Assembly: GCA_001899635.1 (NCBI GenBank) | Contig: MKVQ01000006.1 | Span: 217,835 to 281,834 of the forward strand | Source: Myxococcales bacterium 68-20 | Lineage (GTDB): Bacteria; Myxococcota_A; Polyangia; Polyangiales; Polyangiaceae | DNA: 64,000 nt | Reading direction: 5' to 3' | Shown here: positions 1-6,725 of the stretch, one piece after another | Layout of the letters: every line of letters starts with the position of its first letter | How positions within the stretch are numbered: the first letter of the stretch is position 1 | Notes under the pieces: generated by a model | What the model was told of the DNA's origin: nothing | What the model saw: the letters and a program-made list of their open reading frames with translations, nothing else | The model's database searches: none | Program-made: the position numbers and the translations under genes

Positions 1-296
1 ACCTTCCCGCGCATCGACGAGAGCTCGACATGCGTGTGCGCATTGACGAGCCCGGGGAAGACGACGCCGCGAACGCGCTCGACCGGCAGGCCGGCGTGCT
101 GCGGCAGCACCGACGTGGCCGGGCCGATCTCGACGACGGTGCCACGCCCATCGACGACGACCGCGCCGTCCGCGATGGACGGCACGTCGCCCGGGAGCAC
201 GTGATCGGCATGCAGGACCCGGACGGCCACGCCGACGTCCAGGCGCCCGTCGTGCGCACCGGAGACGCGAACGCCGTCCGAGCCCGCCGTGGTCAC
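1..296 (-). CDS. mqnX: Probable aminodeoxyfutalosine deaminase, N-terminal part (runs off left edge)
   Basis: Only the first 98 codons are in the window; the rest lies beyond base 1. The start is GTG at 296, which overlaps the TGA of the upstream mqnA-mqnC gene in a GTGA arrangement, so the two are likely translationally coupled. The segment has the usual N-terminal small beta-sandwich of amidohydrolases and reaches FPGLVNAHTHVE, whose H87 and H89 are the first two metal ligands of the superfamily. Deaminases of this family convert aminodeoxyfutalosine to futalosine in one branch of the futalosine menaquinone pathway. The family is read from sequence; the substrate is inferred from the operon. 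Another amidohydrolase, such as an adenosine or guanine deaminase-like enzyme, cannot be excluded from this fragment. Confidence 0.72.
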   Translation of the reverse strand, partial: MTTAGSDGVRVSGAHDGRLDVGVAVRVLHADHVLPGDVPSIADGAVVVDGRGTVVEIGPATSVLPQHAGLPVERVRGVVFPGLVNAHTHVELSSMRGK

Positions 297-2191
297 GACG
301 GCTCCGTCAGCCAGTCGTAGCGCACGTTGCGACGCGTCGCCTTGAAGCCGGCGTCGTTGATCCGCTTCTCGATCGCCTCGGCACCGATGCGGAACGTCGT
401 ACCTGCGCTCGACACGACGTTCTCCTCGAACATCACGCTGCCGAAGTCGTCCGCGCCGAAGCGAAGCGCGACCTGGCCCACCGCCGGGCCCTGCGTGACC
501 CACGAGGCACCGACGTGGTCGACGTTGTCGAGCATGAGCCGCGCGACCGCCTGCGTGCGCAGGTAGAGGTGCGTGCCGTTGTCCCCCGGCGCGATGTGCG
601 TTCCGCTCTCGTGCTGGAAGTCCCAGCAGAAGAAGGCAGTGAAGCCGCCGGTCTCGTCCTGGAGGTCGCGGATCTTCATCAGATGCTGGATGCGCTCCTC
701 CGGAGTGTCGACGGTCCCGTACATCATCGTGGCGCTCGAGCGCAGGCCCATGTGATGCGCGACGCGCATCACGTCGAGCCACTCCGCGCTCGTGCACTTC
801 GCCTTCGCGATCTTCCGGCGGACGCGATCGACGAGGATCTCCGCGCCGCCGCCCGGGACGGAGTCGAGGCCCGCAGCGTGGAGACGCTCGAGCACCCGAC
901 GCACGCTGATCTCCTCGAGCTGCGAGAGATGGATGATCTCCTCCGGCGAGAGCGCGTGGAGACCGAGGCCGTACGCCTTCTTCACCCAGCGGAAGAGGTC
1001 CTCGTACCACTCGATGCGAAGATCGGGGTTGAGCCCACCCTGGAGCAGGATCTGGACACCGCCGGCGTCCTTCACCTCCTGGAGCTTCTGACCGAGCACC
1101 TCGCGCGAGAGGACGTAGCCCTCGGGGTGTCCCACCGGGCGATAGAACGCGCAGAAGCGGCAGCTCGTCGTGCAGACGTTGGTGTAGTTGACGTTGCGAT
1201 CGACGATGTACGTGACGACGCCCTTCGGATGCTTGCGCCGGCGCACGGCGTCCGCCGCGAGGCCGAGCTCGAAGAAGCTGCCCTCACGGAGGAGACGCAC
1301 TCCGTCGGAGGCCGAGAGGCGCTCGCCGTCGGCGGCGCGCAAGAGGATCGAGTCGAGCGACGGACGCGACACCGAGGTGCGCGGCTCCTCGAAGGTCGGC
1401 GTCGCCGCGGGGAGGAGCCCCGCCTTCGCGCCCTCCGACCAGAAGCGCTGAAGCCCCGCGAGCTCCTCGTCTCCGAGGTCGTAGCGAATCGACTCGGTGA
1501 GGTACGAGCGGAGCGACTCCTCCGAGAGGCCGGAGCGCGCCGAGTGCTCGGCCGCGATCTGGTCGGTGCGGGCGAGGCCTTTCTGCTTCGCGATGCGGAA
1601 GAGGTCCTCCTGATCGCGCGAGACCGCGCCGGGGCGGGCGAACCACGCCGCGAAGACGAACGGCAGCCCCGTCCAGTCGAACCAGTCCTCGGCGAGATCG
1701 AGGCGGTAGGGATAGCGGTCCTCGAGATCGAGCGCCGGGTCGCCGATGATCAACGCGCCCGTCCGATCGCCGATCGATGCGATGGCCTGCGGAGGCAGCG
1801 CGCCGAACAGCTTCGGCGCCAGCTTGCGCCGCGCGAGGAGCAGCCGCGTGAGGACGACGCTCGTACGCGACGAGAGGTCGAGCGCGATCGAGTCGAGCTC
1901 GTGGATCGGACGCTCGGCGACGATCGCGACACTCCGCACCTTGCCGCGCGCGCCGATCGCCATGTTGCGAAGCAGGCGGAGCTCGCCCATCGCGGCGGCG
2001 GCAGCGACGGGCAACAGGCCGACGTCGGCCTCGTCCTCCGCCAGTGCTCGCGCGAGCTCGCTCGGAGGAGCGAGGCGCAGATCGACGATCCCCGCGCCCA
2101 GTCCGCGCTCGGCCGCCGCGTCGCCGCGGAAGGCCTCCCAGAGCGGACGCGCGTTGAGGTACTCGACCCCGATGACACGGAGCGTGCTCAC
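293..2191 (-). CDS. mqnA-mqnC: MqnA-MqnC fusion: chorismate dehydratase plus cyclic dehypoxanthine futalosine synthase
   Basis: This 632-aa protein joins two steps of the futalosine menaquinone pathway. Residues 1-265 match the MqnA/MqnD periplasmic-binding-like fold (start RVIGVEYLNARPL), which dehydrates chorismate to 3-enolpyruvylbenzoate. Residues about 275-632 match MqnC, a radical SAM enzyme that cyclises dehypoxanthine futalosine. The iron-sulfur cysteines are C340, C344 and C347 in the CTTSCRFC motif. Each half is about the size of the free-standing enzyme, so the fusion looks complete. The start is GTG at 2191, overlapping the mqnE stop (GTGA); the stop overlaps the next start in the same way. 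MqnA rather than MqnD is chosen because no other MqnA is present here, which is inference. Confidence 0.9.
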   Translation of the reverse strand: MSTLRVIGVEYLNARPLWEAFRGDAAAERGLGAGIVDLRLAPPSELARALAEDEADVGLLPVAAAAAMGELRLLRNMAIGARGKVRSVAIVAERPIHELDSIALDLSSRTSVVLTRLLLARRKLAPKLFGALPPQAIASIGDRTGALIIGDPALDLEDRYPYRLDLAEDWFDWTGLPFVFAAWFARPGAVSRDQEDLFRIAKQKGLARTDQIAAEHSARSGLSEESLRSYLTESIRYDLGDEELAGLQRFWSEGAKAGLLPAATPTFEEPRTSVSRPSLDSILLRAADGERLSASDGVRLLREGSFFELGLAADAVRRRKHPKGVVTYIVDRNVNYTNVCTTSCRFCAFYRPVGHPEGYVLSREVLGQKLQEVKDAGGVQILLQGGLNPDLRIEWYEDLFRWVKKAYGLGLHALSPEEIIHLSQLEEISVRRVLERLHAAGLDSVPGGGAEILVDRVRRKIAKAKCTSAEWLDVMRVAHHMGLRSSATMMYGTVDTPEERIQHLMKIRDLQDETGGFTAFFCWDFQHESGTHIAPGDNGTHLYLRTQAVARLMLDNVDHVGASWVTQGPAVGQVALRFGADDFGSVMFEENVVSSAGTTFRIGAEAIEKRINDAGFKATRRNVRYDWLTEPS

Positions 2192-3330
2192 GACACCACC
2201 TGCAGCGCGCGCTTGCGATCGCGGACCTTCATCGACGCCTCCGGGGCGGCAGCCTTCGGGTGCTCGCGCACCACGTTGTAGAGCGTGTCACGCTCGATCG
2301 GCGTCCGACCGGCTTCGCGGATGAGGCGCACGAGCTCGTCGTACCCGAGCGCGCCGGGCGATCGAGTGCCGGCTGCCTTGTAGATCGTCTCGTGCACGAT
2401 CGTTCCGTCGATGTCGTCCGCTCCGAAGCGGAGCGCGATCTGCGCGACGTCGGGGGTGAGACTGACCCAGTACGCCTTGATGTGCTCGACGTTGTCGAGC
2501 AAGAGGCGGCTCACCGCGAGCGTCCGGAGGTCGTCGACCGCCGTGGGCGCGGGGAGGTTCTTCATCCCGTTGCCGTCCGGGTGGAACGCGAGCGGGATGA
2601 AGGCCTGGAAGCCCTTCGTCTCGTCCTGCAGCGCGCGGACACGAAGGATGTGGTCGACGCGATGGGCGAACGTCTCGATGTGCCCATAGAGCATCGTCAC
2701 GTTCGAGCGCATCCCCATCGAGTGGGCGACGCGGTGGACCTCGAGGTACTCGTCGGCGTTCGCCTTGTCGTGCGAGATGCGCTTGCGGACGTCCTCATCG
2801 AAGATCTCGGCGCCGCCGCCGGGCAGGCTGTCGAGCCCCGCCGCTCGGAGGCGCTCGAGCACCTCGCGGACGGTCATCTTGTAGTGCTGCGCGAAGAAGT
2901 GGATCTCGACCCCGGTGAAGCACTTGAGGTGCACGTTCGAGTCGATCCGCTTGAAGCCCTTCAGCAGCTCCTCGTAGTACGAGAACGGAAGCCCCGGATG
3001 CAGGCCGTTGACGACGTGCACCTCGGTGGGCGGGTCGTCCTTGCGATCCTCGAGGTGCTTCCACGCCTCCTCGAGCGACATCGTGTGCGCGCCCGGCATG
3101 TGCGCCTCGAGCTTCGCGAAGGAGCAGAAGAGGCAGGACGCGACGCAGACGTTCGTGACCTCGACGCGCATGTTGCGGTTGAAGTACGTGCGGTCGCCAT
3201 GGCGCTTCTCGCGGACCTCGTTCGCGAGCTGCCCGACGGCGAGGAGGTCGGGCTCGTGGAAGAGCGCGAGGCCGTCGTCGAACGACAGGCGCTCGCCCTG
3301 GCGAACCTTCTGGCGAATCGAATCAAGCAT
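2188..3330 (-). CDS. mqnE: Aminofutalosine synthase MqnE (radical SAM)
   Basis: MqnE adds a SAM-derived adenosyl radical to 3-enolpyruvylbenzoate and forms aminofutalosine, the committed step of this menaquinone route. The 380-aa protein has the radical SAM cluster motif CVASCLFC (C62, C66, C69), the GLHPGLP and PGGGAEIF segments of the MqnE/MqnC/CofH group, and the C-terminal QIALRFGADDIDGT block. I chose ATG at 3330, which has GAGG six bases upstream; an in-frame GTG at 3348 would add six residues. The gene overlaps the 3' end of the barrel-less paralogue upstream and the GTG of mqnA-mqnC downstream, so it sits in the middle of a tightly coupled operon. Confidence 0.92.
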   Translation of the reverse strand: MLDSIRQKVRQGERLSFDDGLALFHEPDLLAVGQLANEVREKRHGDRTYFNRNMRVEVTNVCVASCLFCSFAKLEAHMPGAHTMSLEEAWKHLEDRKDDPPTEVHVVNGLHPGLPFSYYEELLKGFKRIDSNVHLKCFTGVEIHFFAQHYKMTVREVLERLRAAGLDSLPGGGAEIFDEDVRKRISHDKANADEYLEVHRVAHSMGMRSNVTMLYGHIETFAHRVDHILRVRALQDETKGFQAFIPLAFHPDGNGMKNLPAPTAVDDLRTLAVSRLLLDNVEHIKAYWVSLTPDVAQIALRFGADDIDGTIVHETIYKAAGTRSPGALGYDELVRLIREAGRTPIERDTLYNVVREHPKAAAPEASMKVRDRKRALQVVS

Positions 3331-3898
3331 GAACGGCCTCGGCTTCACTGGAAGAGATCGACGTGCCGGCGCCAGCCTCGTCGACGAACTCGCACGACCG
3401 CCCCGCGTTGCGGATCAGGGCGGCGATCTCGCGGCGCCTGAGCGCGCTCGCGGCGACCATCCCCTGCCCCTTCACCTTCTTCAGCTCGTCTTCGGAGATG
3501 AGGAGGCCGCTCTTGCGCGTGATCGGTCCGGTCAGATCGGTCGCTCCGAAGCCGAGCGCGACCTGCGCGAGCTCGAAGCCCTTCTCGCCCCAGTCGACGC
3601 CGATCCGGGCAGCGGTAGGTCCGGTGATGCGTGCGATGGCGACGGCGCGAAGGAGCTCGAGCTCGTTCACCGCATCGCGGACCCAGAGGACGTCGCTCGA
3701 TGCCGTGGGGTGCACCCGCACGACCTCGCCGCCCTCGCGCGTGCGGACCGCGTCGGCGACCGCACCGAGCGCGAGGAGGTCGATCTCCCCGAGGGACGCG
3801 ATGAGCGAGCGAACCGCGTCGAGGTCGCCGCGCTCTCGCGCAGGTAGGATCGGTGCGAGGCCGGCGCGTGCGATCGCCTGCTCGACGAAGCGTGTCAT
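3323..3898 (-). CDS. Small MqnE/MqnC-like protein lacking the radical SAM barrel
   Basis: This 191-aa protein has no CxxxCxxC motif and no TIM-barrel core, but both ends resemble its neighbour MqnE. Residues about 25-60 (DLLALGAVADAVR) align with the MqnE N-terminal helix region (DLLAVGQLANEVR). Residues about 80-180 (ELAQVALGFGATDLTGP, then EIAALIRNAGR) align with the MqnE C-terminal region (DVAQIALRFGADDIDGT, then ELVRLIREAGR). It reads like an MqnE from which the catalytic middle has been removed. The ATG at 3898 overlaps the ubiX stop (ATGA) and the 3' end overlaps mqnE, so it is made in step with the pathway. A role as assembly partner or substrate-binding subunit is inference only. The frame is intact, so it is not obviously a pseudogene. 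Confidence 0.75.
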   Translation of the reverse strand: MTRFVEQAIARAGLAPILPARERGDLDAVRSLIASLGEIDLLALGAVADAVRTREGGEVVRVHPTASSDVLWVRDAVNELELLRAVAIARITGPTAARIGVDWGEKGFELAQVALGFGATDLTGPITRKSGLLISEDELKKVKGQGMVAASALRRREIAALIRNAGRSCEFVDEAGAGTSISSSEAEAVHA

Positions 3899-4497
3899 GA
3901 TCGACCTTCCTTCTCGTTCTTCGTTCCCCATCGCGAGATCAGATCGTGCTCGAGCCCGAGATGATCGAGGACGCGCCCGACGACCGTGTCGAGCAGCCCG
4001 TCGACGCCCTCCGGCTTCCCGTAGAAGGACGGCATCGCCGGCATGATCGTCGCTCCGACGCGCGCGAGCGCGGTCAGGTTCTCGAGGTGGATCACCGACA
4101 GCGGCGTCTCGCGCGGCACGATGACGAGCGTACGGCGCTCCTTGATCATGACGTCCGCCGCGCGCGTGAGCAGGGTGTCCGAGATACCGTGAGCGACGCG
4201 AGCGCAGGTGCCCATCGAGCACGGGACGATCGCCATCGCATCCCAGCCGGCGCTGCCGCTGGCGAACGGCGCCTTGTAGTCACGCATCCCGTAGATCGGG
4301 AAGTCGATCGCCTCGCGGAGATCGCCGCCACACTCGAGCGCCCAGACCTCCGGTGCGGTGGCCGAAAGACAGACGCCGACCTCGACGTCCCCCACCGAGC
4401 GGACGCGGTCCGACAGGAAGGAGAGCAGCCGGCGCGCATAAGGAGCTCCGCTCGCGCCGGTGATCCCGACGACGATCTTTCGCTTCTTCCGGCTCAT
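3895..4497 (-). CDS. ubiX: UbiX-family flavin prenyltransferase
   Basis: UbiX prenylates FMN to make the cofactor used by UbiD-type decarboxylases. The 200-aa protein has the usual family length and starts with the flavin-binding GITGASGAPYA segment (residues 11-21). It also carries the PCSMGTCARVAHGISDTL region and RETPLSVIHLEN of the family. ATG at 4497 overlaps the stop of the UbiD-MenG gene (ATGA) and its own stop overlaps the next gene the same way. Its place directly behind the UbiD domain gene indicates that it supplies prenyl-FMN for decarboxylation of the prenylated dihydroxynaphthoate in menaquinone synthesis. Confidence 0.92.
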   Translation of the reverse strand: MSRKKRKIVVGITGASGAPYARRLLSFLSDRVRSVGDVEVGVCLSATAPEVWALECGGDLREAIDFPIYGMRDYKAPFASGSAGWDAMAIVPCSMGTCARVAHGISDTLLTRAADVMIKERRTLVIVPRETPLSVIHLENLTALARVGATIMPAMPSFYGKPEGVDGLLDTVVGRVLDHLGLEHDLISRWGTKNEKEGRS

Positions 4498-6725
4498 TGC
4501 GCGGCCTCCTCCCGTGCACCCGCGCCCCCGCGCACGATCGCCAACATGCCGAGCGTGAGGTCGACGGCGTCGACCGGGCCGAAGCCCTCCTCCTCGAGCA
4601 GGCGTTCGTACGCCTCGCGCGTGACGAAGCCCTCCATGCTCTCGGCGAGGTACTCGTACGCCTCGCGATCCTTCGCGATCGTCGCACCGAGGACCGGCAG
4701 CGCATAGCGAAGCCCTGCGCCGTGAACGAGGCGCGAGACGGCGCCGCGCGGGCGGAACAGCTCGAGGGTCGCGAACACCCCGCCCGGAGCGAGCACACGC
4801 CGCACCTCGCGCATGCCACGCCGGAGATCGGCGAGGTTGCGGACGCCGAACCCGCAGACGACCGCATCGAAGGAGCCGTCCTCGAACGGAAGCTCGAGCG
4901 CGTCGCCGACGACGCACTCGACGTTCCGCACCTTCGGGCGGCCGAGCGCGAGCATCTTCTCGGACGCATCGCACGCAATGATGTGCGCCTGGGGGAACGC
5001 CTCTTCGATGAGAGCGGCGAAGTCGAGGGTGCCGGCGCAGAGATCGAGCACACGCGGGCGCGAGCGCGACTCGAGCGTGGGCCGGATCATCTCGAGCGTA
5101 CGCGCGCGCCAGCGGCGATCGATCCCGAGCGACATCACTCGGTTCAGGCGATCGTAGTTCGGCGCGATCCGGTCGAACATCTCCCGGTTCCCGTCGGCGT
5201 GCTCGACGGGCGCGGCTGCGCGACGAGAGAGGTCGGCCTCCACTCGCGGCGTCTGCGCGCCGCTCGCCTGCCTGCCGAGCGGGATCCCGAGCTCAGACCA
5301 CATCGCGTCGACGCGTGCCTTGACGACCTCGCTCTGGACGCAGACGTCCGGCCAGTCACGCTTGTAGCCCTCCTCGGGCCACTTCTTCGTGCCGTCGATC
5401 GCCATCTTCCCGCCCCAGAGCGCCTGGCTCGCGCCGTGGTCGAGCTGATCGACGGGGCCGTCGACCATCGAGATGTCGCGCTTCGGATCGAGGTTGGCGA
5501 GGAGGCGCCAGGCGACCTCGCCCGTGTCCTGCACGTTGACGTCGTCATCGACGACGCAGATGACCTTCGTGAAGGACATCTGCCCCGCGCCCCAGAGGCC
5601 GTGGGCGATGCGCGTCGCGTGGTGCGGGTACTGCTTCTTGATCGAGATGATCGCGAGGTTGTGGAACGCGCCTTCGATCGGGAGGTTCATGTCCACGACC
5701 TCCGGGAACATCATCCGGAGGAGCGGAAGGAAGAGGCGCTCGGTGGCCTTGCCGAGCCACGCGTCCTCCATCGGCGGCGGGCCGACGAGGGTAGACGGGT
5801 AGACGGCGTTCTTCCGATGCGTGACGCACGTGACGTGGAAGCGCGGGAAGCCCTCGACCGGCGTGTAGTAGCCGGTGTGATCGCCGAACGGTCCCTCGTC
5901 GAAGAGGGGCTCGCTCGGATCGACGTAGCCCTCGAGCACGAAGTCCGCGCAGGCGGGCACCTCGAGGTCCACCGTCTTGCAGCGCACGTGCTCGACCGAT
6001 CGACCGCGGAGGAAGCCGGCGAACATCCACTCGTCGATCCCGTCGGGGAGCGGCGCGGTCGCGGCGTACGTCAGCGCGGGATCGCCGCCGAAGGCGACCG
6101 CGACCTCGAGGCGCTTGCCGAGCTCCTTCGCGCGACGGAAGTGACGCGCTCCGGTCTTGTGGATCTGCCAGTGCATCGCCGTCGTGCGCCGGTCGATGCG
6201 CTGCATGCGGTACATGCCGATGTTGCGCGCGCCGGTGTCCGGATCGCGCGTGATCACGTTCGGCAGCGTGAAGAAGGGGCCGCCGTCCTTCGGCCACGTC
6301 GTCATCACCGGAAGCGCATCGAGATCGACGGCGTCGCCCTCGAGCACGACCTCCTGACACGGCGCTCGCGAGGCCTTCCGCGGCACGGCGTGGCTCAACG
6401 CGGGGAGCTTCTTCGCCATCTCCGCGAGCTCGCGGGCGCTGCCGGGCGCCTTCGTGTGGACGAGCTCCGCGATCGCTCTCGCGTGCTCCTCGAGGTCCTT
6501 CACGCCGAGCGCGAGGGACATGCGCCTCCGCGACCCGTAGGCGTTGATGAGGAGCGGAAACCGCGACCCCTTCGGCCGCTCGAAGAGAAGGGCGGGCCCA
6601 CCGGCCTTCATCGTCCGGTCTGCGATTTCGGCGATCTCCAGATGGGGATCGACTTCTCTCTGGATCCGCACGAGCTCACCCTCGCGCTCGAGGGTGGCCA
6701 CGAAGGCGCTCAGGCCGTCGTACAT
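4494..6725 (-). CDS. ubiD-menG: UbiD-MenG fusion: menaquinone decarboxylase plus demethylmenaquinone methyltransferase
   Basis: The 743-aa protein carries two late steps of menaquinone synthesis in one chain. Residues 1-485 form a UbiD-type prenyl-FMN decarboxylase, with NIGMYRMQ, EGPFGDHTGYYTP and LPIEGAFHNLAIISI blocks. After a short linker (about 486-512), residues 513-743 are a UbiE/MenG methyltransferase with the family start REMFDRIAPNYDRLN, the SAM-binding segment VLDLCAGTLDFA (559-570) and GFGVRNLADL. The usual GTG of motif I reads GTL here. It is the first gene of the operon; AAGGA lies eight bases before ATG 6725. UbiX, encoded next, would supply its cofactor. Both halves are near full family length. 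Confidence 0.92.
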   Translation of the reverse strand: MYDGLSAFVATLEREGELVRIQREVDPHLEIAEIADRTMKAGGPALLFERPKGSRFPLLINAYGSRRRMSLALGVKDLEEHARAIAELVHTKAPGSARELAEMAKKLPALSHAVPRKASRAPCQEVVLEGDAVDLDALPVMTTWPKDGGPFFTLPNVITRDPDTGARNIGMYRMQRIDRRTTAMHWQIHKTGARHFRRAKELGKRLEVAVAFGGDPALTYAATAPLPDGIDEWMFAGFLRGRSVEHVRCKTVDLEVPACADFVLEGYVDPSEPLFDEGPFGDHTGYYTPVEGFPRFHVTCVTHRKNAVYPSTLVGPPPMEDAWLGKATERLFLPLLRMMFPEVVDMNLPIEGAFHNLAIISIKKQYPHHATRIAHGLWGAGQMSFTKVICVVDDDVNVQDTGEVAWRLLANLDPKRDISMVDGPVDQLDHGASQALWGGKMAIDGTKKWPEEGYKRDWPDVCVQSEVVKARVDAMWSELGIPLGRQASGAQTPRVEADLSRRAAAPVEHADGNREMFDRIAPNYDRLNRVMSLGIDRRWRARTLEMIRPTLESRSRPRVLDLCAGTLDFAALIEEAFPQAHIIACDASEKMLALGRPKVRNVECVVGDALELPFEDGSFDAVVCGFGVRNLADLRRGMREVRRVLAPGGVFATLELFRPRGAVSRLVHGAGLRYALPVLGATIAKDREAYEYLAESMEGFVTREAYERLLEEEGFGPVDAVDLTLGMLAIVRGGAGAREEAAQ

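Follow-up and report, generated by a model that had tools for sequence, protein, structure and literature searches.

The locus raises a simple question: why would a futalosine menaquinone operon that encodes an intact MqnE also carry, directly beside it, a short gene that looks like the two ends of the same enzyme joined together? The gene, here called X, is a 191-aa open reading frame (3323..3898, minus strand) in the window, by which we mean the whole 64,000-nucleotide stretch of DNA analysed. Our preferred answer is that X may be an eroded, ancient tandem duplicate of mqnE, prozyme-like in character and most plausibly contacting MqnE itself, and we assign this reading as a whole a probability of roughly 45%.

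X belongs to a set of genes on the minus strand within the first 6.7 kb of the window, in the order ubiD-ubiE, ubiX, X, mqnE, mqnA-mqnC. The gene farthest upstream in this coupled set is a single open frame of 743 aa (4494..6725, minus strand), whose two parts we take, from sequence and position, to be UbiD and UbiE domains; next comes a frame (3895..4497, minus strand) that is presumably ubiX, a name given by sequence and position rather than by family scan. Downstream of X lie mqnE (2188..3348, minus strand), an intact radical SAM enzyme with the CX3CX2C motif that scores 482.5 bits against TIGR03700, above the cut-off, and a fusion of mqnA and mqnC in one frame of 632 aa (293..2191, minus strand) with matches to PF02621 and TIGR03699. 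The preliminary description of this locus had treated X as an intact frame that overlaps both neighbours in a coupled operon, and so it is: X starts with ATG, has no internal stop, and overlaps the upstream ubiX by 4 nt and mqnE by either 26 nt, counted from a GTG (3348), or 8 nt, counted from an ATG (3330), in a ubiX-X-mqnE order that is conserved. The ATG is likely the true start of mqnE, because five relatives (L002-L004, L008 and L016) share an ATG at the -8 offset and none of the five has a start at -26. The 4-nt overlap between ubiX and X recurs in 17 of 22 loci, a count for which X starts were chosen near the ubiX stop.

Two features of the other pathway genes deserve mention. MqnA and MqnC matches also fall within one frame, judging by equal open-frame lengths, in G104, G030, G044, G008, G282, G220, G185 and G021, and in G282 the fused frame and the mqnE locus are about 0.5 Mb apart. 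Away from the mqnE operon, a PNP-family gene adjoins a second PF02621 gene in G300 (contig C29), G282 (C1), G185 (C151) and G220 (C137); we take the former to be a probable futalosine hydrolase of the MqnB type and the latter to be a probable mqnD.

Single-sequence scans of X detect its C-terminal part only. Against NCBIfam, the best match is the MqnE family TIGR03700 (E 6.6e-10, residues 78-168 only), ahead of MqnC (1.7e-7) and CofH (5.2e-3), at 38.4 bits and thus below the curated cut-off of 434.55 bits. MqnE likewise outscores MqnC and CofH in all 8 relatives that have a CofH-family match among the 10 scanned with NCBIfam, the other two (L138 and L099) having none. The Pfam domain CofH_C (PF19288) matches residues 71-123 at 21.4 bits, under its gathering threshold of 27, and Radical_SAM (PF04055), present in both the MqnE and the MqnC of the window, has no match in X at E values up to 10. 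With the X sequence alone, phmmer returned chance matches only from the PDB, and a 22-row X profile searched against the PDB sequences found MqnE (6xi9) as its best match, with E 1.5e-5, in two collinear stretches: profile positions 76-135 on chain residues 297-356 (20.3 bits), and positions 12-60 on residues 40-88 (5.4 bits, by itself not significant).

Profile-profile alignment (hhalign) to 87 MqnE rows resolves both ends. Residues 62-171 of X align to MqnE 255-352 with E 2.4e-12, and the N-terminal 68 residues, aligned alone, place X 13-62 on MqnE 7-56 with E 8.9e-7 and a score of 43.8, the best of 60 column-shuffled decoys reaching 19.7. Because both matches are significant, both ends of X are genuinely derived from MqnE, as the preliminary description had proposed, and the roughly 200 residues between them are gone. 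X can accordingly be divided into an N-terminal segment (residues 13-62; 3713..3862, minus strand) that corresponds to the region preceding the cluster motif, a variable linker (residues 63-75; 3674..3712, minus strand) that replaces about 200 MqnE residues including CX3CX2C, and a C-terminal segment (residues 76-171; 3386..3673, minus strand; PF19288 E 2.3e-4) that comprises the last barrel strands and the CofH_C region, aligned up to MqnE 352. The same description had called X barrel-less and devoid of cluster cysteines. It was right that some 200 residues and the catalytic core are lost, but a wedge of the barrel persists, and because the C-terminal segment includes the last barrel strands we prefer the term barrel-reduced. 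As to the cysteines, the motif CX3CX2C is found in 0 of 51 X proteins against 92 of 92 MqnE rows, and the window's X does have a single cysteine outside any such motif, at residue 169, conserved in its closest relatives only. Without a cluster, aminofutalosine synthase activity is not expected of X.

That X arose as a duplicate of mqnE is the part of our reading we hold to be nearly certain. In a tree of the C-terminal region the X proteins (46 rows) fall on one side of a branch with support 100/98, recovered in 200 of 200 bootstrap trees, although this tree was built from only 125 usable columns and carries a long-branch warning. MqnC and CofH form clades of their own in it; descent of X from either is not favoured, given also the higher MqnE scores.

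The predicted structure agrees with this origin. AlphaFold2, run on the window's X with 20 relatives, gives a model with mean pLDDT 88.3 and pTM 0.82, in which values below 50 are confined to residues 175-191. The four best PDB chains for this model in Foldseek are all MqnE, with probability 1.00 and E values of 3e-3 to 7e-3, none at E 0.001 or below (TM-score 0.33-0.34 by query length, rmsd 5.1-5.9). VIA-align also ranks MqnE first (6xig_A, Z 10.8, rmsd 4.5, 165 aligned residues), in a match that covers nearly the whole X chain from its first to its last residues. The first 18 rows of that search are all radical SAM enzymes (Z 6.8-10.8), and ethanolamine ammonia-lyase follows in row 19 with Z 5.4; values of this order carry weight chiefly because unrelated structures score so much lower. 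The model of the relative L101, which shares about 35% identity with X, has pLDDT 89.7 and behaves in the same way, with MqnE at Z 12.2 (rmsd 2.9, 159 aligned), radical SAM enzymes in rows 1-20 (Z 7.7-12.2) and row 21 at Z 5.8. The retained part of X is thus predicted to have a fold of the radical SAM barrel type, and an unrelated fold, which would have spoken against the relationship to MqnE first proposed, was not what the prediction returned.

X is widespread among relatives of the window. It was found in 22 of 58 relatives at E <= 1e-3, including all 12 genomes of the genus, and lies between ubiX and mqnE in every one of those 22 loci. Within the order, 47 of 183 genomes have an MqnE above the cut-off and 44 of these have X, the remainder being G044, G104 and G055; long X-profile matches occur in 46 genomes of the order, two of which (G129 and G136) have no MqnE above the cut-off. 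Of 289 genomes sampled from the class, 87 encode an MqnE above the cut-off, and 83 of these have, directly upstream of mqnE, a frame that matches the class-wide X profile; the count is partly circular, since 46 of the proteins counted went into building that profile, A3. An order-only profile, A1, is the more independent check: it gives at least 30 bits to most X frames of other families, with weaker scores of about 25 bits at L137 and L178 and of 15 bits at L120 and L138. X matches are also present in L167 and L181. One of the 83 genomes, G112, is counted through a contig-end piece only (25 bits); its X matches stand at the ends of contigs C147 and C743, so X and mqnE are split there by an assembly break. 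Of the four remaining genomes, three (G044, G104 and G300) have no X at this place and one (G055) cannot be judged, since its locus ends at a contig edge. Orthologues next to mqnE, whose absence was to have counted against the first proposal of a function, are therefore the rule in the class. Records with names, from 20 loci and a scan with one short motif, are Labilithrix (Myxococcota, Polyangia), Polyangiaceae and other Myxococcota or Deltaproteobacteria MAGs, from which we infer that the class carrying X is of the Polyangia type. In one genus of family f18 X is enlarged: L140 (G282) encodes 273 aa, a Gly-, Ala-, Asn- and Ser-rich insert of low complexity accounting for the extra length, and the frame at L168 (G292) is 340 aa long.

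Outside the class the place of X is closed in every locus that could be judged. In a phylum sample of 329 genomes, with the best nine candidates taken per genome, the X-profile matches examined among those listed were MqnE or its relatives. Twenty outside-class loci were compared, chosen non-randomly and mostly from the stronger matches; in all 16 that could be judged ubiX abuts mqnE, and because the gap is only about 12-114 nt there is no room for X. The other four have no ubiX within the stretch examined.

The three genomes of the class in which X is absent bound what it can be doing. In G044, G104 and G300 ubiX runs directly into mqnE, and among 150 candidates scored in each genome no X was found elsewhere besides the places of MqnE, MqnC and CofH. 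G300 belongs to f18, and G104 and G044 to f10, so that at least two lineages are concerned. The C-terminal tree pairs G044 with G104 (93/78), and the MqnE proteins of X-less genomes are unremarkable, with branches that are not long. Within the genus of G104 (L134, no X), G103 (L130) has X between ubiX and mqnE. The MqnE of G103 is also the nearest full-length MqnE to those of both G104 and G044 (82.2% and 80.5%), which tells against one common loss in these two genomes and makes two or three losses of X possible. PF02621 genes (MqnA and MqnD type) and PNP-type nucleosidases (PF01048) are present in 10 of 10 genomes checked, the three without X among them. Because the pathway is otherwise present, X is unlikely to fill a missing step, and we set aside the idea that it substitutes for one; because the X-less genomes keep the rest of the pathway, X is not strictly needed everywhere.

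The extent of the reduction differs across the class. In f15, a profile of five members (245-262 aa) aligns to MqnE 164-355 without a long break (E 2.4e-16) and also to MqnE 27-65 (E 6e-4), so these relatives retain a contiguous half-barrel. The 11 proteins of f18 clearly match MqnE 267-356 (E 2e-11), their N-terminal match being insignificant (E 0.017), and the three proteins of f29 and f32 match MqnE 267-353 (E 9e-8) with no N-terminal match seen. We read this as one tandem duplication of mqnE in the ancestor of the class, followed by partly independent erosion. What was kept and what was given up also differ by position. Residues L274, R275, A278, R281, A302, Q303, F308, G309 and G315 (MqnE numbers) are conserved in X and MqnE alike, whereas K291, Y293 and D314, each present in at least 97% of the 87 MqnE rows, occur in none of the 46 X rows. 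The equivalent of H289 is absent from all 23 rows belonging to the order of the window but present in 8 of 9 rows of f15; that of E320 is found in 7 of 9 rows of f15, and Glu or Asp is common there in f18. Going by the layout of the radical SAM barrel, positions of this kind would face the active site. This pattern suggests that the window's X kept the frame of the fold and gave up the pocket, and that f15 gave up less; because the H289 and E320 equivalents are kept there, some pocket function is possible in f15. Across the 46 class-wide X rows one column is invariant, and none of the polar residues is.

Why, then, was the gene retained? The catalytic core is lost yet evolution has kept the gene, and for that reason X probably assists one of the pathway's working enzymes rather than carrying out chemistry of its own. 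That X is a functional protein we regard as very likely, and that it serves the futalosine menaquinone pathway as a non-catalytic accessory, as probable. The mechanism that we propose begins with a tandem duplication of mqnE in the ancestor of the class, after which one copy would have shed the [4Fe-4S]/SAM half of the barrel but survived as an accessory protein that catalyses nothing itself. The open barrel wedge might then pack against a pathway enzyme, most plausibly the coupled MqnE, as a prozyme, and X could stabilise or tune its partner or hold it beside other enzymes of the operon. The choice of MqnE as the partner is a proposal that we consider plausible but hold with slightly less than even confidence; an alternative partner named in the preliminary description, MqnC, is without specific support, and sequence, tree and position point to MqnE. 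Bolder, and to our minds rather doubtful, is the idea that the aminofutalosine synthase of the Polyangia type might be a two-component enzyme, made up of MqnE and, as a subunit that takes no part in catalysis, its own atrophied copy, with erosion intermediates surviving in various families of the class.

At the opposite extreme, X could be a slowly decaying pseudogene or an open frame kept just as a spacer for the translational coupling of mqnE. It does diverge faster than MqnE and UbiX, it has been reduced in size repeatedly and it is missing from three genomes. However, dN/dS values (NG86, eight pairs) are 0.15-0.54 for X, compared with 0.01-0.19 for MqnE, 0.13-0.27 for UbiX and 0.12-0.38 for UbiE; X is under purifying selection, less constrained than MqnE and UbiX, and the high nonsynonymous rate that was to have betrayed decay is not what we find. 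None of the 22 orthologues has an internal stop, their motifs are conserved at 29-81% identity to X, and confident folds are predicted. In-frame stops do lie inside 11 of 47 X profile matches; in the ten checked, that is, all but the contig-end piece of G112, the stop is X's own end, because the profile match overruns X by a few codons. A spacer, for its part, is hard to reconcile with the loci outside the class, where ubiX and mqnE abut without one. With intact orthologues under purifying selection, we reject decay as the main reading and consider either version very improbable. A small-molecule binder, in which X would use a residual barrel pocket to carry or sense a nucleoside or an intermediate of the pathway, or to exert feedback in response to it, has more to recommend it: the ancestral enzyme binds nucleoside-type ligands, a lysine-rich KVKGQG loop is kept in close relatives of X, and f15 keeps the H289 and E320 equivalents (8/9 and 7/9). 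But K291, Y293 and D314 are gone from all 46 rows and H289 from all 23 of the window's order, the KVKGQG loop is missing from the other families compared, and no polar residue is invariant class-wide, so that we consider ligand binding improbable.

The remaining rivals concern the partner. X could be an accessory protein of UbiX, of the UbiD-UbiE fusion or of MqnA-MqnC, or a scaffold for several of them. Its start-stop coupling to ubiX is as tight as that to mqnE, and the ubiX-X-mqnE order is conserved. Moreover, the covariation of its evolutionary rate over 36 genomes is no stronger with MqnE (partial r 0.335) than with UbiX (0.382) or UbiE (0.390), so MqnE is not singled out. Yet the ubiX-mqnE order works without X outside the class, a protein that keeps the MqnE frame has no evident reason to bind UbiX or UbiD, and mqnA does not follow mqnE everywhere in the class (none was seen at L122 and L140); we judge a partner other than MqnE unlikely. 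Finally, X might form homodimers or act alone in an unrelated role and merely travel with the operon. An open barrel wedge would be expected to need a covering surface, and PMC8250049 mentions homodimerisation as a way in which atrophied barrels might be rescued. Against this, X stands next to mqnE in 83 of 87 genomes spanning a whole class, which a gene with no part in the pathway would hardly be expected to do, and we find such independence quite improbable.

X adds to the futalosine menaquinone operon a gene conserved across a class. Within the open-licence literature, judged by title or the start of the abstract, no description of the X gene was found. A 2026 survey of quinone pathways maps the Men and futalosine routes over bacteria (PMC13386864), and neither 'mqnE' nor 'hypothetical protein' occurs as a term in its main text. 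The X proteins also form a graded natural set, the catalytic half of a radical SAM barrel having been lost to a varying extent and the remainder staying under selection, and because a 191-aa X and its intact parent share one operon, the role of a non-catalytic barrel part becomes testable. If the bolder two-component reading is correct, a canonical radical SAM enzyme would here be working with a prozyme.

Among known proteins X is closest to MqnE itself (TIGR03700; PDB 6xi9 and 6xig), with which it shares the N-terminal region, the C-terminal strands with CofH_C, the operon and the best fold match; it differs in that some 200 residues are missing, that it has neither CX3CX2C nor a Radical_SAM Pfam domain, and that it scores 38 bits where the family cut-off is 434.55. 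MqnC and CofH, of the same radical SAM subfamily, have the CofH_C C-terminal region in common with X, but score below MqnE against it and stand as separate clades in the C-terminal tree. Beyond this subfamily, the nearest parallel in kind is the PRMT1 of Trypanosoma brucei, in which, according to PMC10908127, an inactive paralogue, PRMT1 PRO, is required by its active partner, PRMT1 ENZ. Like PRO, X is a paralogue of an active enzyme and is kept beside it. X has no catalytic apparatus, and it is maintained by purifying selection in genomes that also encode the active MqnE; unlike PRO, it has lost half of its domain, it belongs to another enzyme family, and its effect on MqnE is putative. The loss itself resembles the TIM-barrel domain atrophy of Prakash and Bateman, in which, as PMC8250049 summarises it, secondary-structure elements of the core disappear and contacts with protein may compensate. 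In X, too, core barrel elements are lost and the loss is fixed in evolution, about 200 residues being gone relative to a full barrel where the f15 relatives align contiguously to MqnE 164-355. What sets X apart from the cases summarised there is that a paralogue has been reduced to varying degrees across a class while keeping a fixed place in the operon, beside its intact parent.
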